Source: Acetobacteraceae bacterium (lineage in GTDB: Bacteria > Pseudomonadota > Alphaproteobacteria > Acetobacterales > Acetobacteraceae). From it: 64,000 nucleotides of DNA. The DNA lies in the NCBI GenBank assembly GCA_027451405.1, contig DAIDJM010000008.1, positions 1 through 64,000 on the forward strand, in the 5' to 3' direction. Each line of letters starts with the position of its first letter. Position 1 is the first letter of the stretch. The translations under genes and the position numbers were made by a program. The notes beneath the pieces were generated by a model, which was given only the letters and a program-made list of their open reading frames with translations, did no database searches and was not told where the DNA came from. This document shows, in pieces, positions 23,218-33,272 of the stretch.

Positions 23218-23559
23218 CTATCGTGGGGCAGCAAAAGGGGCCGGAGCCTGAATCGTCGGCCGAGCCGGGATGCTTGAGCGGCCGAAATTGGCGCCGAGAC
23301 GTTCACGCGTGGCGGCCTGGTTGAACTGACCCGTCACGTTGCTCGGTGACGTGGCGCTGACCGGCGCGTCGAGCGACGATGGCCGGGCAGTCTCACGGGC
23401 AAACGCACCAAGTTGCCGGTTGAGGCAGGCATAGCCCTGCGCGGTGCCGGCCTCGACTTCGTTACAGTCCTGAGCGGCCGACGCCGCAGAAGGCGCGCCG
23501 ACCGTCTGGGCGCCGGATACGATCGGGAAAAGGAACAGGATCGCCGACCACCGGAGCAC
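23218..23559 (-). CDS. Small secreted protein of unknown function
   Basis: A 113-residue protein with a signal peptide (MLRWSAILFLFPIVSGAQT) and one pair of cysteines in DCNEVEAGTAQGYACLNRQL, probably a disulfide; the C-terminal half is low-complexity Pro/Ala/Arg. GTG 23559 has GGGAG seven bases upstream. It is the last gene of the eight-gene operon that begins with the TpsB gene. I do not recognise a family. Confidence 0.6.
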   Translation of the reverse strand: MLRWSAILFLFPIVSGAQTVGAPSAASAAQDCNEVEAGTAQGYACLNRQLGAFARETARPSSLDAPVSATSPSNVTGQFNQAATRERLGANFGRSSIPARPTIQAPAPFAAPR

Positions 23560-23576
23560 TCTTCATCTCCCTTTTT

Positions 23577-24452
23577 TCAGGGCTTCGTCACGTGCGCCAG
23601 CTCGATTTCGTCGACCCGCACCGGCTCTTGGCGAATCAAATTCGCGGCATAGGCCTGTTCGAGATCGTGCTGCTTTTGCGCGCGCATCAGGCGGATCAGG
23701 CCGGCGCGGACCTGGTCGAGCGGTGCCGGGCCGGCCGGACGGGTCGCCGCGAGCTTCACCAGCGCGCAGCCGGCCGGCGTGCAGACCGGGCCGCCGACCT
23801 GTCCTTCAGGTAGTCCCGAGACCACCGCCTTGACCGCTGGCTGCAGCCGGTTCTCCGGCACCCATCCGAGATCGGCATATTGCACGCCGCTTGCAAAGCG
23901 CGTCGCCGCGGCGAAAGCCGTTCGGGTGCGCAACATCTGCAGCCGCACGCTTGCGAGCTGCCGCCGGGCGGTTTCCTGCGCGGGGCCGGCGGCGACCAGG
24001 AACAGCTGTTCGATCCGATAGGCGCGCGGCTGGAGAAGCTGTGGCTTGGCGCGCTCATAGGCAGCCTGCAATTCGGCTTCGCTGGGATAGTTCGCCGGAA
24101 CCTGGGCCTGCGCCGCCAGGAAACTCTGCGCGACGGCATTGTCGTGCGCGCGCTGAGCCGCTTCGGCCACCTCTGGGCGTTGCTCCCAATGCTGCGCGGA
24201 GGCGGCCTCCAGGATCGCTTTCTGGAGCAACGTGTCGCGGAGCAGCGTCTGGATGCCCTCCGGCGCCGCCAGGAGCTTGGCTCGCGTGTCGGGGTCGAGC
24301 GACGCGATCAGGGCGCGGGCTTGCGGGACGGTGATCTGGTCCGGGCCACGTTCGGCCACCACCTGGGCGCGGGCGGGCAGGGCGAGCGCCAGCGCCGCGC
24401 AGAGCGCCAGTTCAGCGCGGCGGGATATATTCCTGATCCCTGATCTTGTCAT
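23577..24452 (-). CDS. Periplasmic parvulin-like (PpiC-type) prolyl isomerase/chaperone
   Basis: A 291-residue protein with an N-terminal export signal (LALCAALALALPARA). A SurA-like helical part follows, then a parvulin domain with YADLGWVPENRLQPAV and LPEGQVGGPV...GCALVKL. It likely helps fold the outer-membrane members of the same operon (TpsB and the porin). ATG 24452 has AGGA upstream and overlaps the preceding coiled-coil gene by 41 bases. Key parvulin residues cannot all be confirmed by eye, so activity could be lost. Confidence 0.75.
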   Translation of the reverse strand: MTRSGIRNISRRAELALCAALALALPARAQVVAERGPDQITVPQARALIASLDPDTRAKLLAAPEGIQTLLRDTLLQKAILEAASAQHWEQRPEVAEAAQRAHDNAVAQSFLAAQAQVPANYPSEAELQAAYERAKPQLLQPRAYRIEQLFLVAAGPAQETARRQLASVRLQMLRTRTAFAAATRFASGVQYADLGWVPENRLQPAVKAVVSGLPEGQVGGPVCTPAGCALVKLAATRPAGPAPLDQVRAGLIRLMRAQKQHDLEQAYAANLIRQEPVRVDEIELAHVTKP

Positions 24453-25032
24453 CGTAATCCTGTACCATGTTCTGCAGCCTGACCTTCGCGAGACCAAGGA
24501 CGGGCTCGTAGCTGCGCAGCAGAATGCCGCGGAAGCTCTCGCTCTCGTAGAGGTGAAGAATATCCTCTGCAACGGCGATGAGCTTGGTGTTCGCGGTTTT
24601 ACAGGTCTGTAGTGCCGTCAGGTTCGATTTGAGACCCGCTTCCGTGCGGGCCATCTCGGCGTCCCGGGCTTGAGCCGTCTGCTCGGCCGCGGTGGCTTGA
24701 CCCTGGATACGCAAGAGGGCCGACTGCAACTGCCGGTTCTGTCCCGCCTCGGCCTGCAGCTGGGCTTGCAAGGCCGCGATCTCTCCCGGCTTGACCGCAT
24801 CCTTGCCCTGCATTGCGGCGAGCTTTGCATTCGCGGCATCGAGCTGCTGCTTGGTCGATGCGAGTTCGGCTTGCGCTTGTGCCAGGGACGACTGCGCCGT
24901 GGCGGCTTGGTCCTGCGCCGCGCGCATCTCCTGCACCGATTGCCGCAACGCCTCGCGCAGCCGGTCTTCCGGACTCTGATCGTCGGCCAGCGCGAGTGCC
25001 GGGAAGAGAAGGAGGAATACGAGATGGCGCAC
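24412..25032 (-). CDS. Periplasmic coiled-coil protein
   Basis: A 206-residue protein with a signal peptide (MRHLVFLLLFPALALA), then an Ala/Gln-rich coiled coil over residues ~20-130. The C-terminal part has one cysteine (LQTCKTAN) and a globular-looking segment, SFRGILLRSYEPVLGLAKVR. It has no enzymatic signature and could be an adaptor between the energy-transducing complex and outer-membrane parts. It starts two bases after the porin stop. Confidence 0.7.
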   Translation of the reverse strand: MRHLVFLLLFPALALADDQSPEDRLREALRQSVQEMRAAQDQAATAQSSLAQAQAELASTKQQLDAANAKLAAMQGKDAVKPGEIAALQAQLQAEAGQNRQLQSALLRIQGQATAAEQTAQARDAEMARTEAGLKSNLTALQTCKTANTKLIAVAEDILHLYESESFRGILLRSYEPVLGLAKVRLQNMVQDYDDKIRDQEYIPPR

Positions 25033-25034
25033 GA

Positions 25035-26798
25035 TCAGAAGCTCGATAGAAGATCGAACTGCACGACGTCGTTGTTGTAGCGGGGCCCGGAGATCGAGGT
25101 GGCGCTGAACCAGCGCAGCGAGAGCTGCGTGTTGGCGGCAACACCGAGATTGCCGGCTAGGATGTAGCCTCGTGCATTGGTGCCGCCGAGATGGAAATCG
25201 GCATCGGCAATGGAATCGAGCGTCGAGTCCGTCTCCAGGTAGCGGTAGGAGAGCGCCACGTTCCAGTCCCAGGCTTTGTGGAGCGCAAACTTGCCGACGA
25301 TCAGCTTGGCCATGTAGCCGGTGTCGCCGCCCTGGTAGAAGCCGTTGTTGCCAATATTATTCTGCGGTCCAACCGTATTGATGATCGCGCTGCCGCCAAA
25401 GCCAGGCTGCCGCGGACCATGATTGAGGATGTCGCTGCGACTGTAGGCCAGGTTTTTGATGAACTCGGCTTCGATGGCGATGTCGATCGGATGATAGGTG
25501 TAGATCTCGAAACGCGGATGGATGTCGAGCACGTTGAATTTCGATGCCAACCCAAAATACTGTGGGTCGGGCGGCGTGGCGGTGCCGGGCACTGGGACCA
25601 GATTGCGAATGGCGTAGACCGTATTGCCGAACTGAAGAAAGGGCGGTCTCGTATTGTCGGTATTGCAGTAATAGATGGGGTTGGTGACGGTCGAGCCCTG
25701 CTGGTAATTGCATAGCGAGGAGACCGCCCCCTGCACGCCCAGGAAGTCGAACAGTCCGACCCCGAGGGTCGCCTGGTACTCGGGCGTGACGTTCCACCTT
25801 AGCCCAGCTTGAATGCCGGCGAGATAAGCATCCCGACTGGCATATTTGGTGGTATTGGTTGTCGAGAAATCAAACGCGGTGTTGGAAACCGGGAAAGCGC
25901 CTGCGGTACCGAAAGCCGTGAGTCCGTCGTCGATGGCTTGCGACCCGACCGCGGCCACACCGTCGAACGACAAATCGGGATAGAACATCAGGTCGGACGG
26001 CAGGAACGGATTGTACATGCGCCCAGCGAACAGGGTCACTTGCTGCAGTGGCGTGAGCTTGAAATAGGCCTTGTCGACCCACAGCTGGTATTTATTGAAA
26101 TCGCCCGGCTGGCCGAGGGTCTGGTTCGGTGAAACGGGCCCCGCATCCGAACCGGTACCGATCCGTACGTCCGCTGTCACCCAGTCATCCAGAGCCACAT
26201 CGACCCCGACCCGCGCACGGACGCGATAGAGATTGCGATTTTCAGTGGTGTTGAGGAAGGGCGGCGGCGAGCCGGTCCCGTTGGCGTATCCGAAAATGTC
26301 GAATGGGGAGCCGTTGTTGATGGCATTGAAGTTGACGAACTGATTGCTGTTCGACTTGTCGAAGATGTCGCCTTGATACCGCATCCTCAGATCGCCATAG
26401 ATCCGGATCCGGTTGATCCACTCCGGCAGCGAGGAGGGCTGAGCGATACCCTCTTCCTGCGACTGGCTCACCACTTCCGCCCGCACCTCGTCGGCGATCT
26501 GCTCGCGGATGAATTGCGGCACGTACGTCACGCGGATCTGGCCGGGCACCGGGGTTTCGGGCGTTTCCTGGGGCGCTGGCGCCGACACCGAGGCACGCGA
26601 CGCGGCACGGCGGGTTCTTGCGGACGTGCCGGTTTCACGCAGCAGATCCTTGGCCTGGCCTGGACTCAGAATGCCTTTCGCGATCAGCAGCTGGATGAGC
26701 CGCACCGTCTGCTCATCGGCCTGTGCCGAAGGAGCCCCGAGCGCGACCAGAGTGCAGACGAGCGCAGCGCGCGCAAGCCAGGTTGTTCGGCCCGTCAT
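25035..26798 (-). CDS. Putative outer-membrane porin (Porin_5-like)
   Basis: A 587-residue protein. A signal peptide ends near APSAQADEQ, followed by a helical periplasmic segment (residues ~25-110) containing LLIAKGILSPGQAKDLL. A long beta-rich region follows, beginning RIRIYGDLRMRYQGD, with alternating aromatic strands and a terminal Phe (LLSSF), typical of a porin. ATG 26798 follows GGGGGAA. The TonB-like gene lies just upstream, so this channel may be energised or gated, but no TonB box or plug is recognisable. Confidence 0.8.
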   Translation of the reverse strand: MTGRTTWLARAALVCTLVALGAPSAQADEQTVRLIQLLIAKGILSPGQAKDLLRETGTSARTRRAASRASVSAPAPQETPETPVPGQIRVTYVPQFIREQIADEVRAEVVSQSQEEGIAQPSSLPEWINRIRIYGDLRMRYQGDIFDKSNSNQFVNFNAINNGSPFDIFGYANGTGSPPPFLNTTENRNLYRVRARVGVDVALDDWVTADVRIGTGSDAGPVSPNQTLGQPGDFNKYQLWVDKAYFKLTPLQQVTLFAGRMYNPFLPSDLMFYPDLSFDGVAAVGSQAIDDGLTAFGTAGAFPVSNTAFDFSTTNTTKYASRDAYLAGIQAGLRWNVTPEYQATLGVGLFDFLGVQGAVSSLCNYQQGSTVTNPIYYCNTDNTRPPFLQFGNTVYAIRNLVPVPGTATPPDPQYFGLASKFNVLDIHPRFEIYTYHPIDIAIEAEFIKNLAYSRSDILNHGPRQPGFGGSAIINTVGPQNNIGNNGFYQGGDTGYMAKLIVGKFALHKAWDWNVALSYRYLETDSTLDSIADADFHLGGTNARGYILAGNLGVAANTQLSLRWFSATSISGPRYNNDVVQFDLLSSF

Positions 26799-26820
26799 CG
26801 AAATTCCCCCGCAATTCCAA

Positions 26821-27537
26821 CTAGCCGCGAGCGTGCGCGCTGAAACGCACCACCCAGGGCTTGCCGCCATTCGCCATGTCGGATGGCAGCGACTCGCCGG
26901 CCGCCACTTGCTGCAGTGCGCGGACCACGTCGGCCCGCGTATCCGGCGGGCCGCTGTAATCCTGAAGCTGCACGCTGACCGCATGCCCATTGCGGTCAAA
27001 TATCAATGCCACGACGCCACTGTAGTGCGCGAAACGCAGCCGCTCATCCTGCTCCAGAGCGCGCACGACGGCGCTGTTGACGAGGCTCCGGTAGTAATCG
27101 CCGGCGTCCCCGCCGCCATTACCGTTGCCGCAGCCCTCGCCGATACAGTCGCCGCCGCCGCCATTGCCGTTGCCGAGCGCACCAGGACCGTTGCCGCTGA
27201 TCGAGGTCGTGGCAGCGGCGGGCGGTGATGGTGCCTTCGGCGCTTTGACCGGCGTCGGACGCGGCACCTTCGTGGGGGCAGCTTTTGCCTGCTCGGTTTT
27301 GGTGGGCGGTGGCGGCGTTTTCGGCGGCGGTGGCGGCGGCGGCGGTGGTGGCAATTTCACATTCAGAACATGCAGCTCATGATGAGGACGCGGCGATGGA
27401 CCGCCATGATGGAGAAGCTTGAACAGAAAAAACCCGCTGAAGCCGACGAGAACAAGGGCAGCCCCGGGCAGTGCCGCGCGCTGCCAGAACGGTCGCTTGG
27501 GATCCGCGTAGGGATCGATCTCGTCGTCGCCAAGCAT
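26821..27537 (-). CDS. TonB-like energy transducer
   Basis: A 238-residue protein with one N-terminal membrane helix (GAALVLVGFSGFFLFKLL), a proline/lysine-rich periplasm-spanning region (PPPPPPP, KTPPPPTKTEQ), a glycine-rich linker with a Cys pair (DCIGEGC), and a C-terminal domain RSLVNSAVVRALEQDERLRF...GVVALIFDRNG like TonB C-domains. It should carry ExbB/ExbD energy to an outer-membrane partner. Three bases separate it from exbD. Confidence 0.82.
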   Translation of the reverse strand: MLGDDEIDPYADPKRPFWQRAALPGAALVLVGFSGFFLFKLLHHGGPSPRPHHELHVLNVKLPPPPPPPPPPKTPPPPTKTEQAKAAPTKVPRPTPVKAPKAPSPPAAATTSISGNGPGALGNGNGGGGDCIGEGCGNGNGGGDAGDYYRSLVNSAVVRALEQDERLRFAHYSGVVALIFDRNGHAVSVQLQDYSGPPDTRADVVRALQQVAAGESLPSDMANGGKPWVVRFSAHARG

Positions 27538-27540
27538 GGC

Positions 27541-27948
27541 TCAGCTACCTGACGGGCTGCGCTGGGTGGCCAGCCCGACCGAAGTGATCCCGATATTGCC
27601 GCAAATATCGAGCACGTCCATGATCTTTTGGTATTGGACGGAACGGTCGCCCTTGATGACGACCTGAAGGTCGGGAGTTGTCGCCTTGAAGGCGCGCAGC
27701 TTCGCCTGGAGCTCCGCCATGCTCGCCGGCACCGCATCGATGCTTATGTTGCCGCTGTTGGTGACGGAAATCAGCTTGGTCTTGTTGTTCACGAGCGTCT
27801 GAGTCGAGCTGCCATGCGGGAGATCGACCTTCGTGCCCTGCACCGAGGCAGTGGTCATGATAATGAAGATGACGACCAGCACGTAGGCGAGGTCGAGCAT
27901 CGGCGTGATGTTGATGTCGTCGTAGGGTTTGTCCTCGTTGATCTGCAT
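27541..27948 (-). CDS. exbD: Biopolymer transporter ExbD
   Basis: A 135-residue ExbD/TolR protein. DINITPMLDLAYVLVVIFII contains the membrane helix with the conserved proton-carrying Asp, and the periplasmic domain ends VLDICGNIGITSVGLAT. It partners with the adjacent ExbB-like protein to form the proton-driven motor. It starts ten bases after the ExbB gene. Confidence 0.9.
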   Translation of the reverse strand: MQINEDKPYDDINITPMLDLAYVLVVIFIIMTTASVQGTKVDLPHGSSTQTLVNNKTKLISVTNSGNISIDAVPASMAELQAKLRAFKATTPDLQVVIKGDRSVQYQKIMDVLDICGNIGITSVGLATQRSPSGS

Positions 27949-27958
27949 GGCCGCGCCC

Positions 27959-29845
27959 CTATTCCGCGGCCTTCGCGACCGCCGCCTGAACGCAGGCTTC
28001 GGCCACTCGGGTGACCACCTCGTCCACGAACACGATCATCTCGTTGGTCATGGTCTTGATGCGCGTTTGCAAATAGTTGTAGCCGAACAGGGCAGGAATC
28101 GCGACGAACATGCCGGTCGCCGTGGCAAGCAGAGCGGCGGAAATGCCGGGCGCGATCGAATTGACATTGACATCGCCCGCGGCCGCAACGGCCGCGAAAG
28201 TGATCATGACGCCGACCACCGTGCCGAGCAGACCGACGAACGGCCCGCCGGAGATCGCGATCGTGAGCAGCACCATGAGATTGTTGAGTTTCGCGGCTTC
28301 GCGGGTGAGCTGCGCGTTCATGGACGCGCGGATCGCCTCGAGCGAGCGCGCGCTGATCGTGCCGTCGGCCTTCACCCGCCCGCCCGAAAGCCGCTCATCG
28401 AGCTCGCGGCGCCCGATGTCGTAGATATGGAACAGACTAGCCGGCCGCACCGACGGCATGGCCTTGGGCGGCACGGGCGGCATCGGTTCGTGCGCGTGCG
28501 GCCCGCGCATCGCCTCGTGCATCGCAGCGCGGAACCGCAGATTGGCCTTGGCCGTGCGACCGATTTGCCGGGCCTTGCTGACCATCACGAACCAGGAACT
28601 GACCATCATCAGAATCAGGATTCCGATGATGACCCAGGCATCGAGCGTAACGTTGCTGAGGATGATGCCAATATAGCCGGTGCTCCAACTGCTCGTCTGC
28701 TCGGGTGCTTCGAAGCCCAACAGGTTAGCCTGCGGCCCCTGGCCGTGCACGGCAACCTCGATCGTGCCTGGCGGGCGCACGGTTTTGCTGATTTCGAGCT
28801 CATCGACTTCGCCGACGAACCCGGGCGCAGGCGTTGCGGCCGGAGCAACACCGGATGACGTCGATGCGGTGGGCGAAGGTGGTGGCGCCACCGCCGCGCC
28901 GCCGAGCAGGGCAGTACCGCTGATCGGCGGCAGCGACCCCGGAGCCTCGGCTACTTTCGTGCCATCGACATAAATCACGATCTTGTCCGATGCCGTGACC
29001 GTGATGAGGTGCCAGAGATCGGGCGTGACCGGCGACGCGGCTTGGACGCGCAGTGCGGCGCCGGCCGCTGGCGTGGTCTGCGCGTAAGGCTCGCCCGCGG
29101 CGAGGCCGATCTGCAGATCGGCGACGCCGCCCGCGTCCCGCTGATCAAACAGCACACTCGTCTGATTGGCGGGAGCCGGCTTCGCCCAGATTTGCCAGGT
29201 GTAGGGTTGCGCTGCCGCGATATTCAGCGTGGGGTTCGCGGCGAGCTTGATCGGCAATTGGCCATCCAGCTTGGCGCCGAGCCCGATCAGTCCGGCATCG
29301 TCGCGCCTGACCGGTGTCTGACCGTCATTGTGGTAAGCTGTCGCATCGCGCGGGGCGCCGGTCGGGTCGGCAAAATGCCAGACGAGCAACTGATCGGCAT
29401 CGTAGGTCGCAGCCGCATCCTCGGCAGCGTTTGCCTTGTCGTTGCCCCAATACACATAGAAGCTCGTGACGGAGCCTGGGGCGATGGCCGGCAGATCGAC
29501 CCAGACGAGCCCGACCTGATCGACGAGCGGATCCCATTTCTCGATATGGAAATGAAGCGGCGTCTTGTTGTCTGCGGCGACGAACCGAAGATCGCTGCCG
29601 TCCGCCTTGGCCGTGTCAAACTTGAAATTGCCGTCATGCAGACGGACGAGCACCTGGGTGCGACCGATCGCATCACCGATACCGGCCCCCTTCGGCGTCG
29701 TATCGACATCGATTTTCATGCGATACTGCCATTGCCCGTCCCACCAGGCCGCCAGCGCCGCACGCGGGCTCAAGGCGCAGAAGGTGATTGCCAGAAAGGC
29801 CAGCATCCACCAGCGCCGCGCATTTGCCATCCGCCGCATCGGCAT
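27959..29845 (-). CDS. ExbB/TolQ proton channel fused to DUF2341 and LamG-like domains
   Basis: A 628-residue fusion. After a signal-like helix, WWDGQWQYRMKIDVD starts a DUF2341 domain (~35-180), followed by a concanavalin-like LamG region (~190-335). A membrane helix (WVIIGILILMMVSSWFVMV) leads into the ExbB core with GGPFVGLLGTVVGVMITF. Ordinary ExbB is ~240 residues, so about 380 extra residues face the periplasm and may sense or bind a glycan or protein. The start overlaps the TpsB stop by one base. The combination occurs in other proteobacteria but its role is not clear. Confidence 0.88.
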   Translation of the reverse strand: MPMRRMANARRWWMLAFLAITFCALSPRAALAAWWDGQWQYRMKIDVDTTPKGAGIGDAIGRTQVLVRLHDGNFKFDTAKADGSDLRFVAADNKTPLHFHIEKWDPLVDQVGLVWVDLPAIAPGSVTSFYVYWGNDKANAAEDAAATYDADQLLVWHFADPTGAPRDATAYHNDGQTPVRRDDAGLIGLGAKLDGQLPIKLAANPTLNIAAAQPYTWQIWAKPAPANQTSVLFDQRDAGGVADLQIGLAAGEPYAQTTPAAGAALRVQAASPVTPDLWHLITVTASDKIVIYVDGTKVAEAPGSLPPISGTALLGGAAVAPPPSPTASTSSGVAPAATPAPGFVGEVDELEISKTVRPPGTIEVAVHGQGPQANLLGFEAPEQTSSWSTGYIGIILSNVTLDAWVIIGILILMMVSSWFVMVSKARQIGRTAKANLRFRAAMHEAMRGPHAHEPMPPVPPKAMPSVRPASLFHIYDIGRRELDERLSGGRVKADGTISARSLEAIRASMNAQLTREAAKLNNLMVLLTIAISGGPFVGLLGTVVGVMITFAAVAAAGDVNVNSIAPGISAALLATATGMFVAIPALFGYNYLQTRIKTMTNEMIVFVDEVVTRVAEACVQAAVAKAAE

Positions 29846-31443
29846 CAGAACTCCTCATAAACGCGGAACAGCACGCGATTGGTGCCTGCCCGCGTGTTCG
29901 GACCATTGTTCAGCGCTTCCGCATCCTGCACCGAACCATTGAGATATCCCCACAGATTGACGCGCGTGCCGACTCCGACCGAGCTCAATCCATAGCTGGT
30001 GCGCTCATGCTGCGTGGTGATCGCGTTGCGGATGCCGACTACGCCGGTATCCCCGAACAGGTGGAAGCGCCAACTGTGCACCGGGCCGCCGATATAGCGC
30101 GCGATCGAGGGGCTGCGCAGCTCCGTCTGCAGCGAGACGCCGTAATCACCGAGCGTCTCGGCCTCGAGATAGCCCCGGATGCTTTCGGCACCACCGAGTG
30201 CGAGTTGCTCGCTCTGCACCAGGGAATCGTTGGTGTATTGGCCTTGAACACTGCCCCAGAGCTGAATGTCGTGCGGCAGATCCTGCTCGCGTGTGAGCGA
30301 GGCCCGAAGCAGGGAAAATCCAGGAACCGCGGCGTAGCGCTTGTTGTCGTATTGAAGGATGTTGCTGCCCAGATGATCGACGCCGAGCTCGGCGCTGAGC
30401 GTCAGATCGGTCGTGCTGCCGGTCTGCATGCGATCGTCGAAATGGTTCCAGCTGGCCGCGTATGCCGCGTTGAGCGGATAGTAGGTGACGGGCGCCGACG
30501 TCGTACCCGTCGTCTTGAACGTGTCTAGCTCATAGTATTTTTTGTAGTCCCAGCCAATGCTGAGAGAATGCGTAAAGCTCGTCGTCTGGCCGAGCGGAAT
30601 CAGCAGCCGAAATCCAGCCGTCGTGCCACGGCCGACCACATCGGTGGTGCCCAGCGCCAAAACATTACTGTTGGAGTGTAAATAGCTCAGCAGCAAGGAC
30701 ATGCGGCTGTCCGGAATATGGAACAGATAGCTCGCACTCTCGATTTCTGCATCCGCCACGTTCTCGGGCGCCACGGAGTAGGTGACGGTTCCAGAATCTC
30801 CGCGCTGGAAGAAATTGCCGTAGGTGAGGGAGGCGTTCAGCCGCAGCGCCGTGGTATCGGCGTTGTAACGGTTATTGAGCTCAAGCGAGCCGTGCAGCGG
30901 AAACTTGTCCGCTACGTCGAGATCGACATCCATGGTGTCCGGCTCGCGCCCGGGCCGGAGCGCCGGCGTCACGGTGCGGTCCGGCAACTGGTTCAGGCCC
31001 ACAAGGTCCCTTTTGACCGCGTCCAGTCGCGGCAGGCTGCCGGGCGAGAGAGACGGCGCAGCAGCACGCACAGCGTTGGGCACAAAATAACGCGCGCCCA
31101 CCACCCGCAGCCGCTCGACGCGACGCTCGATCACCTGCAGATGCACGACACCGTGGCTCTCGGCCAGACTCTGGCGCGGCACCGTCACCGTCACCGTGAT
31201 GTAGCCGGCCTGCCGGTAGGCTTTTTCGAGTGCGGCCCGCGCGGCATAAATGTCCTGCACCGTCTTGTCCGGGCCGAGATACGGGTAGACGGTCTCCTCG
31301 ACCGTTTCCTGCGGCAGCGCCGTGGCCCCGTCGATGCGAAATTCGTCCAGATCGAAATGAACGCGTTGGGCAGGCACGTCTGCGCGCGCGGCAAAGCTTG
31401 CGCTGGCGGCAGCCAACGCGAGCCACAGGCGCGCCAGACCCAT
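29845..31443 (-). CDS. TpsB/ShlB-type outer-membrane transporter (Omp85 superfamily)
   Basis: A 532-residue protein with a signal peptide (MGLARLWLALAAASASFAARA), two POTRA domains (~25-180), including FRIDGATALPQETVEETV and VTVTVPRQSLAESHG, and a 16-strand-type barrel. GGAESIRGYLEAE is the conserved loop-6 RGY motif, and the C-terminus is FRVYEEF. It should secrete a partner protein or insert one into the membrane. A TTG at 31464 is in frame, but ATG 31443 gives the clean signal peptide. First gene of the operon, 95 bases below the PHO box; no TpsA gene is adjacent. Confidence 0.88.
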   Translation of the reverse strand: MGLARLWLALAAASASFAARADVPAQRVHFDLDEFRIDGATALPQETVEETVYPYLGPDKTVQDIYAARAALEKAYRQAGYITVTVTVPRQSLAESHGVVHLQVIERRVERLRVVGARYFVPNAVRAAAPSLSPGSLPRLDAVKRDLVGLNQLPDRTVTPALRPGREPDTMDVDLDVADKFPLHGSLELNNRYNADTTALRLNASLTYGNFFQRGDSGTVTYSVAPENVADAEIESASYLFHIPDSRMSLLLSYLHSNSNVLALGTTDVVGRGTTAGFRLLIPLGQTTSFTHSLSIGWDYKKYYELDTFKTTGTTSAPVTYYPLNAAYAASWNHFDDRMQTGSTTDLTLSAELGVDHLGSNILQYDNKRYAAVPGFSLLRASLTREQDLPHDIQLWGSVQGQYTNDSLVQSEQLALGGAESIRGYLEAETLGDYGVSLQTELRSPSIARYIGGPVHSWRFHLFGDTGVVGIRNAITTQHERTSYGLSSVGVGTRVNLWGYLNGSVQDAEALNNGPNTRAGTNRVLFRVYEEF

Positions 31444-31467
31444 CTTGCTCGCTGACCCGGACAAAGC

Positions 31468-31505
31468 GGATAAACCCTCGGCCAGTGATCACGGGCCGTT
31501 TATCC
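31468..31505. promoter_or_regulatory. Inverted repeat in leader of TpsB operon
   Basis: GGATAAAC (31468-31475) and GTTTATCC (31498-31505) are perfect 8-bp arms around a 22-base interior that has its own CGGCC/GGCCG pairing. It lies between the PHO box and the TpsB start codon. It could be an operator or an RNA hairpin in the leader; there is no T-tract, so a simple terminator is unlikely. Confidence 0.5.
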
Positions 31506-31537
31506 CGCGAAGCAAGCCGCTGTCACGCCATTCAGGT

Positions 31538-31555
31538 GTGACAGATTCATGACAA
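31538..31555 (-). promoter_or_regulatory. PHO box (PhoB site) of TpsB-ExbBD-TonB operon
   Basis: Read on the minus strand the site is TTGTCAT-GAAT-CTGTCAC, two seven-base repeats with a four-base spacer. It matches the PhoB consensus CTGTCAT-AWAW-CTGTMAY at 16 of 18 positions. It points toward the TpsB gene, 95 bases from its ATG. An oppositely oriented CTGTCAC half-site is at 31520-31526. Confidence 0.75.
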
Positions 31556-31767
31556 AGATCTTTTATGTTGGCATCTAAATCTGGCACTCAACCTGAAGGA
31601 CAGGCTTCGGCGGCAAACGGGCCATAATCGTCTCAACGCGAGCCAATATTCGCACGGATCGAGACGTGACCCATAAGAACCGACATATAGGCTTGAGAGG
31701 TCCAAATCCGCAGGGCAGCCGCAATGAATGACTACAAATCCGCGGTCTAGGCTTGATCGTGACCGGA

Positions 31768-31818
31768 ACGTCAAGGAACTGTAACCGATCTATCCCCCGA
31801 TCGTCACGGAACTGCCAC
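31768..31818 (+). promoter_or_regulatory. Tandem PHO-like sites upstream of PstS-like gene
   Basis: Two sites of 7-4-7 layout share a GGAA spacer: ACGTCAA-GGAA-CTGTAAC (31768-31785) and TCGTCAC-GGAA-CTGCCAC (31801-31818). They are exactly 33 bases apart, three DNA turns. Each alone is weak (about 12-13 of 18 consensus positions). The second ends 65 bases before the PstS-like ATG. Confidence 0.5.
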
Positions 31819-31883
31819 GGGTTTCTGCTACGTAGCCGCCCGCGGTCCCTCGCGTGACCGTGTTCTCTAGGGGAAACACCGTT

Positions 31884-33272
31884 ATGTCTCGCACCCATCT
31901 GCTGGGCGCCGCTTCCGCGGTCGCGCTTAGCTGCGCCGCGCTCGGCGCTCAGGCCGCGTCCGTCGTCAATGGCGGCGGCTCTACGCTCGCTCAGTTCGTC
32001 TATGGCAACGGCGCACCTTACACGACGCCGACGCCGAATGAATTCAATCTCTGGAACACGCAGGTCCCCGCTCCGGCCGCGACCTTCGGCAGCTACTGGG
32101 AATCGGGATCGGGCGCCGGTCAGCTCGGCTTCCTCACCGATAACCTCACTTGCGTGATCGAAAAGTCGCAGGGTGCCAGCACGATCTGCACGGGCACGCC
32201 GGGTGGCGCGAACACCCAGCATTACGGCGCCTCGGATGCGACGCTCACCACGACGCAGACCTCGAGCTGGGCGACGCTGACGGTCGGCCAGAGCCTTTCG
32301 GGCAACCTCATCCAGCTTCCGACCATCGGCGTCGGCGTGGCGATCCCGGTCAAGAACGCCGCCCTGACGAAGAACGGTGCGCTGGTTTTCACCGACAACG
32401 ATCTCTGCGGCATCTTCTCGGGGAAGATCACCAATTTCAGCCAGATCACCGATAGCCCCGTGGCGCCCACCGCCGGTGCGATCACGGTCGTTTATCGTGC
32501 GGATGGATCGGGGACGACGTTCCTGCTGACCAATCACCTCTCCGACCCGAACGTCTGCAACAGCAGCAACACGAACTCCGGCTTCACCTTCGTCCCGACG
32601 CTGACCTTCGCCAGCCTTTTCGGCGGCACACCGCCCGCCAACTTCCATGGCGAGAATGGCAGCAGCGGCATCGCCGACGCGCTCAGCGGCCTTGGCGATC
32701 TTGGGACCAATCCGAAAAACATTGTCACCTATCTGACGCCGGACCTGACCACGATCGCGCCGAAATCGACCGCGACTCTGTCGAACGGCACGCATAGCAA
32801 GCTCAAGGTTGTTGCCGTAACGAGTGGCGCGGTGACGGCGGCCCTGCCATTGGTTGGGAATATCATTCTTGGTCTCAAGAGTGTCATCGACGGCACCAAC
32901 AAGACTCCGCCCACGAACGCCACGGCAGGCGCGAACCCGCTCAACTGGGTTCCGACGGTGGCCACGGTCTCGGCCGGCTATCCGATCGTCGGCTACACGA
33001 CCGCGGATTTTGCGCAGTGCTACGCGGACCCGAACGTGGCCGCCGCCGTCAAGGGCTGGCTCACCGACAATTACAAAAACACGGCCTACCAGAGCGTGGA
33101 AAAGAACAATGGCTTCGTGCCGCTGGTAAGCAGCAAAGCCGCACCGTTCTACACCTATATCGCGAACCACATCCTGTCGAACTCGACTCTGAATGGCGGG
33201 CCGTGGAACACCGACATCGAAAACACCAAGGTCTGCAAGGCGGTGGGCGGTTCCACCTACGCCGGCCGCTGA
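31884..33272 (+). CDS. Secreted PstS-like phosphate-binding protein
   Basis: A 462-residue periplasmic or exported protein with a signal peptide (MSRTHLLGAASAVALS...GAQAA). NGGGSTLAQFVY, SGSGAGQ, HYGASDATL and YRADGSGTT correspond to the phosphate-binding loops of PstS. It is ~130 residues longer than transport PstS and no pstCAB genes are adjacent, so it may be an exoprotein or scavenger. ATG 31884 gives the signal peptide. Divergent from the TpsB operon; a strong terminator follows at 33294. Confidence 0.85.
   Translation: MSRTHLLGAASAVALSCAALGAQAASVVNGGGSTLAQFVYGNGAPYTTPTPNEFNLWNTQVPAPAATFGSYWESGSGAGQLGFLTDNLTCVIEKSQGASTICTGTPGGANTQHYGASDATLTTTQTSSWATLTVGQSLSGNLIQLPTIGVGVAIPVKNAALTKNGALVFTDNDLCGIFSGKITNFSQITDSPVAPTAGAITVVYRADGSGTTFLLTNHLSDPNVCNSSNTNSGFTFVPTLTFASLFGGTPPANFHGENGSSGIADALSGLGDLGTNPKNIVTYLTPDLTTIAPKSTATLSNGTHSKLKVVAVTSGAVTAALPLVGNIILGLKSVIDGTNKTPPTNATAGANPLNWVPTVATVSAGYPIVGYTTADFAQCYADPNVAAAVKGWLTDNYKNTAYQSVEKNNGFVPLVSSKAAPFYTYIANHILSNSTLNGGPWNTDIENTKVCKAVGGSTYAGR

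Follow-up and report, generated by a model that had tools for sequence, protein, structure and literature searches.

The window, the whole 64,000-nucleotide stretch of Acetobacteraceae DNA that was analysed, contains eight minus-strand open reading frames (ORFs), which overlap or are separated by 2–22 bases, and one divergent plus-strand ORF (Table 1). A sequence-only reading had described these as an eight-gene operon facing a gene for a secreted protein, and we found the ORFs at about the same coordinates, with better starts for TpsB (ATG 31443), the porin (ATG 26798), PpiC (ATG 24452), and the divergent DING gene (ATG 31884).

Table 1. Genes and predicted regulatory sites of the locus, in window coordinates
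Feature	Position	Strand	Basis
Small secreted protein, conserved RLGxNFGRS motif	23218..23559	-	Orthologues in most relatives
PpiC-type parvulin peptidyl-prolyl isomerase/chaperone, PA0699-like	23577..24452	-	Pfam Rotamase_2 7e-16
Secreted/periplasmic coiled-coil protein, PA0697 position	24412..25032	-	Same-position orthologues in relatives
Porin_5 outer-membrane porin, PA0696-like	25035..26798	-	Pfam 3e-167; same position as PA0696
TonB: transmembrane helix, proline-rich linker, TonB-type C-terminal domain	26821..27537	-	Orthologues and model
ExbD	27541..27948	-	Pfam ExbD 3e-29
ExbB with N-terminal periplasmic DUF2341 and LamG (ConA-like) domains	27959..29845	-	Pfam
TpsB, ShlB/FhaC-type transporter, PdtB-like	29845..31443	-	Pfam ShlB 4e-20 and POTRA_2
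Predicted Pho box TTGTCATGAATCTGTCAC in tpsB promoter	31538..31555	-	About 75-95 bp upstream of start
Five predicted Pho half-sites, 11-bp spacing, upstream of DING gene	31768..31818	+	27/35 matches, p about 0.003
DING/LapA-type secreted phosphate-binding protein, divergent	31884..33272	+	Pfam PBP_like_2 7e-12; phmmer

The operon encodes a TonB–ExbB–ExbD motor, consisting of an ExbB channel, ExbD, and a TonB with the fold of the C-terminal domain. The ExbB protein matched the Pfam families ExbB (2e-27), DUF2341 (1.5e-13), and Laminin_G_3 (7e-11), and it is the only protein in the genome with a DUF2341 domain. The TonB-like ORF had no Pfam match of its own, while its orthologues exceeded the TonB_2 cut-off in a profile search and an AlphaFold model of its C-terminal domain resembled those of HasB, TonB, and TolA (Foldseek probability 1.0, E 1e-3 to 6e-3). 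No specific family was found for the coiled-coil protein. The best PDB relative of TpsB was CdiB, and TpsB shared 37–68% identity with its orthologues in relatives. In most TpsBs, an H1 helix and a linker of about 30 residues are predicted before POTRA1, although they do not define the family. The POTRA region of the window TpsB begins about 7 residues past the predicted signal peptide, so that it has neither an H1 plug helix nor a 30-residue linker; in the TpsB members compared, this distance was about 7–30 residues. An AlphaFold model of TpsB made from a 4-row alignment was too poor for use (pLDDT 47).

Neighbourhood comparison found the gene order again in 14 genomes of the same family, as far as their contigs reach, and also in Luteibacter and Alcanivorax. 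It recurs on plasmids too, and those of Klebsiella quasipneumoniae and Methylosinus bear self-contained tpsA–tpsB–exbB–exbD–tonB–porin modules. Kinship with the Pseudomonas aeruginosa pdt region, proposed in the sequence-only reading, was likewise upheld by a shared gene order (PMC7035377, PMC4971064): pdtB–exbB2–exbD2–tonB4–PA0696 to PA0700 (PUMA3/VreI, PhoB regulon) has the order TpsB–ExbB–ExbD–TonB–porin–coiled coil–(YbjN)–PpiC in common with the window. PA0696 is a putative porin (PMC7035377), and PA0692–PA0699, which include the functional two-partner secretion (TPS) pair PdtAB, are controlled by PhoB and the sigma factor VreI (PMC7035377, PMC4971064). The likeness extends to Pho control, here predicted, to a giant TpsA, and, in the island of relatives, a DING/LapA-type protein together with a type II secretion system (T2SS). 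Unlike in P. aeruginosa, the tpsA gene of this genome is not adjacent, tpsB has the DING gene as its direct divergent neighbour, and the operon lacks a YbjN gene, phdA, and vreAIR. No vreAIR-like sigma/anti-sigma genes were found among the ORFs around the operon; Luteibacter and the plasmids of Klebsiella and Methylosinus do have such genes. The locus is thus a further example of the already known Pdt operon type, a system that is known but poorly understood in Pseudomonas.

The candidate Pho box in the tpsB promoter scored 13/14 (p 0.001–0.005 against random windows), and no other site in the 3.37-Mb genome matches YTGTMAYNNNNCTGTMAY exactly. Together with the half-sites upstream of the DING gene, it supports the prediction that the operon and the DING gene are under phosphate/PhoB control, bearing out what had been proposed earlier; that phosphate starvation turns on the operon is predicted with near certainty. 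Pho boxes were only partly conserved across relatives (5 of 18 loci at p <= 0.02, the window included), the tpsA promoter had no convincing site (10/14), and the genome's two further DING genes (on C54) lacked a clear Pho box.

A search of the genome, a draft in 67 contigs, found one TPS-domain protein, a TpsA of 4264 aa with a DUF3739 domain (G000 contig C1:2467-15261). No tpsA lies next to the operon, as the sequence-only reading had observed, and the search for an unlinked one, which that reading had called for, recovered a dedicated candidate. This TpsA matches those encoded just downstream of the same operon type in Luteibacter (29% identity over 1922 aa, 2.5e-130) and Alcanivorax, and in the closest relative (G156) tpsA is the divergent neighbour of tpsB. 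Of 397 genomes of the order, 15 carry its family, and the very same 15 carry the DUF2341-ExbB (Fisher 2e-27). Phylum-wide, both occur in 11 genomes, with ExbB in 13 and TpsA in 12. As the genomes counted are related, these counts are not independent. TpsA and the operon share a contig in 9 of the 15 genomes. With an N-terminal TPS domain on this TpsA and POTRA and ShlB-barrel regions in TpsB, the pair is predicted to form a type Vb system, and the operon would most likely serve to place a single giant adhesin-like protein, whose gene lies elsewhere in the genome, at the cell surface.

The genome encodes a second ShlB-type TpsB on another contig, C52, giving two such proteins against one assembled TPS-domain protein, so it might be this second TpsB that exports the TpsA, with the window TpsB having lost its partner. 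Since the second tpsB lies at a contig end, 134 bp upstream of the break, its own partner may have been cut off, and the pairing proposed here rests on homology and co-occurrence. We consider the exchange of partners very unlikely because this TpsA family adjoins the window operon type elsewhere and co-occurs with it in 15 of 15 genomes. We regard as likely both the Pdt-type identity of the system and the role of the unlinked TpsA as the cargo of the window TpsB.

The divergent gene had been read as encoding a secreted PstS-like protein that could be the cargo or partner of TpsB. Its position was confirmed, but in phmmer the protein matched DING/LapA-type proteins (1e-24 to 1e-28) better than it did PstS (1e-7), with DING proteins and 5jk4 ("alkaline phosphatase") as best matches. 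Its linkage to the system is close: the DING gene is divergent and adjacent to the operon in the window, G374, and G299, 10 of the 11 DING-bearing genomes (among 382 of the order) carry the module, and in 9 of 9 relatives with both, DING shares a contig with the operon or TpsA. As a TpsB substrate, however, it would lack a TPS domain, and the module occurs without a DING match in G156 and others and on a plasmid without DING nearby. In P. aeruginosa, the homologue LapA/PA0688 is secreted by the Hxc T2SS (PMC4899797, table), 7 of 7 relatives tested have GspE genes on the contig of the operon or of TpsA, and DING and type II secretion genes share one island in relatives. Given the dedicated TpsA and the T2SS route, we rejected the DING protein as cargo, a role we hold to be highly improbable; it is a member of the island, and the one-to-one co-occurrence of TpsA and ExbB points to TpsA as the likely substrate. 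A dedicated TpsA substrate encoded elsewhere is also what the sequence-only reading had itself named as speaking against its proposal.

All complete motor-linked TpsAs inspected end, after DUF3739 and an Ala-rich linker, in the motif PS[IV]xxVxVLGFG (peptide type PSIITVEVLGYGG), a class-specific tail motif that is new here. A motif matrix trained on 10 sequences was applied to 16 in other families; 14 scored higher than every one of 5400 shuffles, and two more were variants. The Klebsiella and Methylosinus TpsAs also carry the motif. It was absent from 11 TpsAs in these genomes that have no motor, and their C-terminus is quite different. In sequence, the motif resembles a TonB box in its beta-strand-like [IV]xxVxV core but lacks the acidic-Thr start of classical boxes. 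It could thus be unrelated to TonB, capping the beta-helix or binding TpsB, PpiC, or the coiled-coil protein, a reading to which we give only slightly less than an even chance: the motif is not a canonical TonB box, it follows DUF3739 and the end of the beta-helix, and in many homologues a second conserved motif, QVLGxG, comes next. Against this reading, the motif is set apart from the beta-helix by about 40 residues of Ala/Ser/Gln-rich linker, and the motor-less TpsAs have different C-termini.

Type V/TPS export is generally held to run without a motor or energy source (PMC5422565), and the earlier view that a TpsB with its own Ton motor is notable was judged right. In agreement with this rule, TpsB could be passive as in FHA/CDI, and the motor could energise another partner, such as Porin_5, an unlinked TonB-dependent receptor, or envelope anchoring via the lectin-like DUF2341/LamG region. 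Porin_5 is always in the operon in the relatives compared, and ExbB does bear a large periplasmic lectin-like domain. Porins, however, are not known to have a plug or a TonB box, and the conserved operon has no TonB-dependent receptor gene. The strict co-occurrence of TpsA and ExbB and the confinement of the motif to motor-linked TpsAs further tie the motor to TpsA, which leads us to regard another partner as unlikely, if still a serious contender. FhaB/FhaC and CdiA/CdiB share with the window system a TPS-domain exoprotein and an Omp85-superfamily POTRA transporter, whereas the window operon adds a dedicated Ton motor, TonB, a porin, and PpiC, its TpsB family lacks the H1 helix and linker, and its TpsA ends in DUF3739 and the TonB-box-like motif. 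That a Ton system can power the export of a protein through the outer membrane has a precedent in Oar, which secretes PopC in Myxococcus in a TonB-dependent manner (PMC6434023), although Oar is a TonB-dependent receptor with a plug and a TonB box and the Omp85-type TpsB has neither. We found no paper proposing Ton-powered TPS or describing DUF3739.

From these comparisons we infer the cargo, the motor target, and the direction and purpose of the force as follows. Under phosphate starvation, PhoB would turn on the operon, and TpsB would export the one giant TpsA made elsewhere in the genome, with PpiC and the coiled-coil protein probably holding it unfolded in the periplasm. The ExbB-DUF2341/ExbD/TonB motor would belong to this machine and, as its most likely target, act on the TpsA–TpsB pair, which we consider quite possible while stopping short of calling it probable. 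In the step we favour, TonB would bind the TonB-box-like C-terminal strand of TpsA, which would stay periplasmic below the Ala-rich linker threaded through TpsB, and a pull on this tail would drive, finish, or regulate export, anchoring, or release. More tentatively still, these systems may form a distinct, widespread TPS class whose Omp85-type TpsB is worked by a proton-driven Ton motor via this strand. If so, the power for export, anchoring, or release would come from the inner membrane, and the ExbB-DUF2341 domain would belong to a secretion motor. This proposes a role for the DUF2341 ExbB proteins, which were listed with function unassigned in 2025 (PMC12505986), and for the uncharacterised exbB2–exbD2–tonB4 of P. 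aeruginosa. Since the tail motif is limited to motor-linked TpsAs, energised two-partner secretion becomes testable, and a TPS subclass hardly ever parted from its own Ton motor offers a precise test of the no-energy rule. The DING protein would be a co-regulated phosphate scavenger that probably exits via the type II system, which may explain the joint secretion of DING phosphate-binding proteins and giant haemagglutinins in phosphate-starved cells (PMC5082522).

The small secreted protein at the end of the operon matched no family in Pfam or NCBIfam, and the place of its gene within the cluster varies among relatives.

ORF calls, the sequence itself and Pfam searches bore out all genes named in the sequence-only reading, and the operon, whose genes overlap or stand 2-22 bases apart, is real. 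The TonB-like product had no Pfam match of its own; its orthologues passed the TonB_2 cut-off, and its modelled C-terminal domain (pLDDT about 80) had the C-terminal domains of HasB, TonB and TolA as top PDB matches (probability 1.0; E 1e-3 to 6e-3). In P. aeruginosa, the phdA promoter gives a transcript of phdA, pdtB, exbB2D2, tonB4 and PA0696-PA0701 (PMC4971064), in which PA0696 is a putative porin, PA0698 a YbjN protein and PA0699 a PpiC isomerase (PMC7035377), bearing out the proposed kinship with the pdtA-pdtB region. Since clustered TPS, ExbBD and PA0696 homologues were already noted in several genera by Llamas et al. 2009 (PMC2729926), the window locus is one more example of an already described kind of cluster rather than a new system. 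The small secreted proteins (window 23218-23559; relatives' loci L010:5386-5760 and L013:4283-4897) share a conserved RLGxNFGRS motif; this family has no Pfam or NCBIfam model, and its place and strand inside the cluster vary among other genomes.

Features of the Pdt-type operon, its divergent neighbour and the TpsA of the same genome
Feature	Position	Strand	Remark
TpsB	31443-29845	minus	1st in transcription order
ExbB	29845-27959	minus	2nd
ExbD	27948-27541	minus	3rd
TonB	27537-26821	minus	4th
Porin_5	26798-25035	minus	5th
Coiled coil protein	25032-24412	minus	6th
PpiC	24452-23577	minus	7th
Small secreted protein	23559-23218	minus	8th
Secreted phosphate-binding protein (DING/LapA-type)	31884-33272	plus	divergent from operon
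Predicted Pho box TTGTCATGAATCTGTCAC	31538-31555	minus	about 75-95 bp upstream of tpsB
Five half-sites, 11-bp phase	31768-31818		DING promoter; p about 0.003
TpsA, open frame of 4264 codons	contig C1, 2467-15261	plus	TPS domain + DUF3739
Tail motif PSVVDAEVVSIG	residues 4239-4250		TpsA of this genome

The operon encodes a Pdt-type two-partner secretion (TPS) system whose dedicated TpsA lies elsewhere in the genome. As had been stated, no TpsA gene adjoins it; a genome search for an unlinked one detected exactly one TPS-domain protein, on contig C1. The window contig extends at least 23 kb on either side of the operon, and distant linkage is possible, the assembly being a draft. The operon type recurs in Luteibacter, Alcanivorax and plasmids, and the C1 TpsA matched those encoded directly downstream of it in Luteibacter (29% identity over 1922 aa, E 2.5e-130) and downstream in Alcanivorax (40% over the TPS region). 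Among 397 genomes of the order, 15 had the DUF2341-ExbB region, and the same 15, with no others, had the N-terminal region of TpsA, each in single copy (Fisher 2e-27; 9 genera; kinship of the genomes lowers the true significance); in a phylum set of 398 genomes, 13 had ExbB and 12 had TpsA, with 11 genomes having both. Operon and TpsA shared a contig in 9 of the 15, and in the closest relative the TpsA gene is divergent from tpsB, at the position of the window's DING gene. Klebsiella quasipneumoniae and Methylosinus plasmids carry complete modules with their own TpsA and vreAIR-like sigma/anti-sigma genes. Together, homology, strict co-occurrence, shared contigs and plasmid modules indicate that the C1 TpsA is the expected substrate of the window TpsB. 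A second ShlB-type transporter of this genome ends about C52:23220 (L018), 134 bp before its contig does; its TpsA may be absent from the assembly.

The system is probably under phosphate control, as had been claimed. A search of the 3.37-Mb genome for YTGTMAYNNNNCTGTMAY gave a single exact hit, the site upstream of tpsB; the reversed control pattern gave no more than one match per strand although one mismatch was permitted. The score of this box was equalled by 0.1-0.5% of random windows, and the DING promoter also has predicted half-sites, but scores among relatives were mixed: of 18 regions upstream of tpsB, counting that of the window, 5 reached p <= 0.02. The predicted boxes thus support, but do not prove, PhoB control.

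The divergent protein had been read as PstS-like and as possible TpsB cargo. A phosphate-binding protein is indeed encoded there, but it matched DING proteins and the 5jk4 'alkaline phosphatase' (1e-24 to 1e-28) far better than PstS (about 1e-7), and is therefore DING/LapA-type. Of 382 genomes of the order, 11 encoded DING proteins, and the module was present in 10 of these 11 (Fisher 2e-15); the DING gene shared a contig with the operon or TpsA in 9/9 relatives having both, and GspE genes did so in 7/7 relatives tested. In P. aeruginosa, the counterpart PA0688/LapA appears among the listed substrates of the Hxc type II system (T2SS) as a phosphate-binding protein (PMC4899797), and P. fluorescens SBW25 at low phosphate secretes a DING protein along with a large exoprotein resembling FhaB (PMC5082522). 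These results indicate that the DING gene is a co-regulated island member whose product most likely leaves via its own T2SS route. Its role as TpsB cargo is unsupported, the dedicated, ExbB-paired TpsA being the expected substrate. Two more DING-like genes stand in tandem on another contig of this genome (L118, C54:41176-43516), with no clear Pho boxes. In three relatives (L058:2639-4528, L059:5076-6896, L061:15699-17726), the gene immediately preceding tpsB, in the same orientation, encodes a larger protein of ~600 aa that is only weakly similar to DING.

Since TPS export is thought to run without external energy (PMC5422565), the constant Ton motor calls for explanation. This subclass is distinguished by two features, one in TpsB and one in TpsA. 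In the motor-linked TpsBs, only about 7-30 residues separate the signal peptide from POTRA1, so that the H1 helix and the 30-residue linker reported for FhaC (PMC5422565) are absent. Their TpsAs end, in order, with the beta-helix end (DUF3739), a linker of about 40 residues rich in Ala, Ser and Gln, and a strand-like PS[IV]xxVxVLGFG, which in the homologues tested lies 4-65 residues before the C-terminus. A matrix built from ten same-family TpsAs and tested against 5400 shuffles placed the motif above all shuffles in 14 of 16 TpsAs from other families, a divergent version being in place in two further ones, and found it in 0 of 11 motor-less TpsAs from the same genomes, most of which end in LP[DN][VI]xxRD[YF]. 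Motor-less TpsAs of relatives (L138-L150) mostly show LP[DN][VI][AS]xRD[YF], the final residue being aromatic. In receptors, the TonB box is a short beta strand at the periplasmic end; hence, on the simplest interpretation, TonB from this operon would grip the TpsA tail at the strand-like motif, which, unlike classical TonB boxes, has no acidic-Thr start. Ton-driven export has a precedent in Myxococcus, where it is known for PopC through Oar (PMC6434023). The DUF2341 extension of ExbB is listed as of unknown function (PMC12505986). As far as we searched the literature, the strict TpsA-motor pairing and class-specific tail are new, and they make energised two-partner secretion a directly testable question.

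The tail motif also occurs in plasmid TpsAs of Klebsiella (PSTISVEILGYG) and Methylosinus (PSIITVEVLGYG). Plasmid-borne Pdt-type operons were seen at L158 (NZ_CP084804.1), L160 (NZ_AP022333.1) and L159 (NZ_CP017750.1). On the Methylosinus plasmid, a substrate-binding-domain protein (L161:1-76; NZ_AP022333.1 45354-47075) adjoins the giant TpsA, recalling the DING association; on a Cupriavidus plasmid the operon adjoins T2SS genes, and the K. quasipneumoniae plasmid is conjugative, with two giant haemagglutinin genes as well as its vreAIR-like genes.
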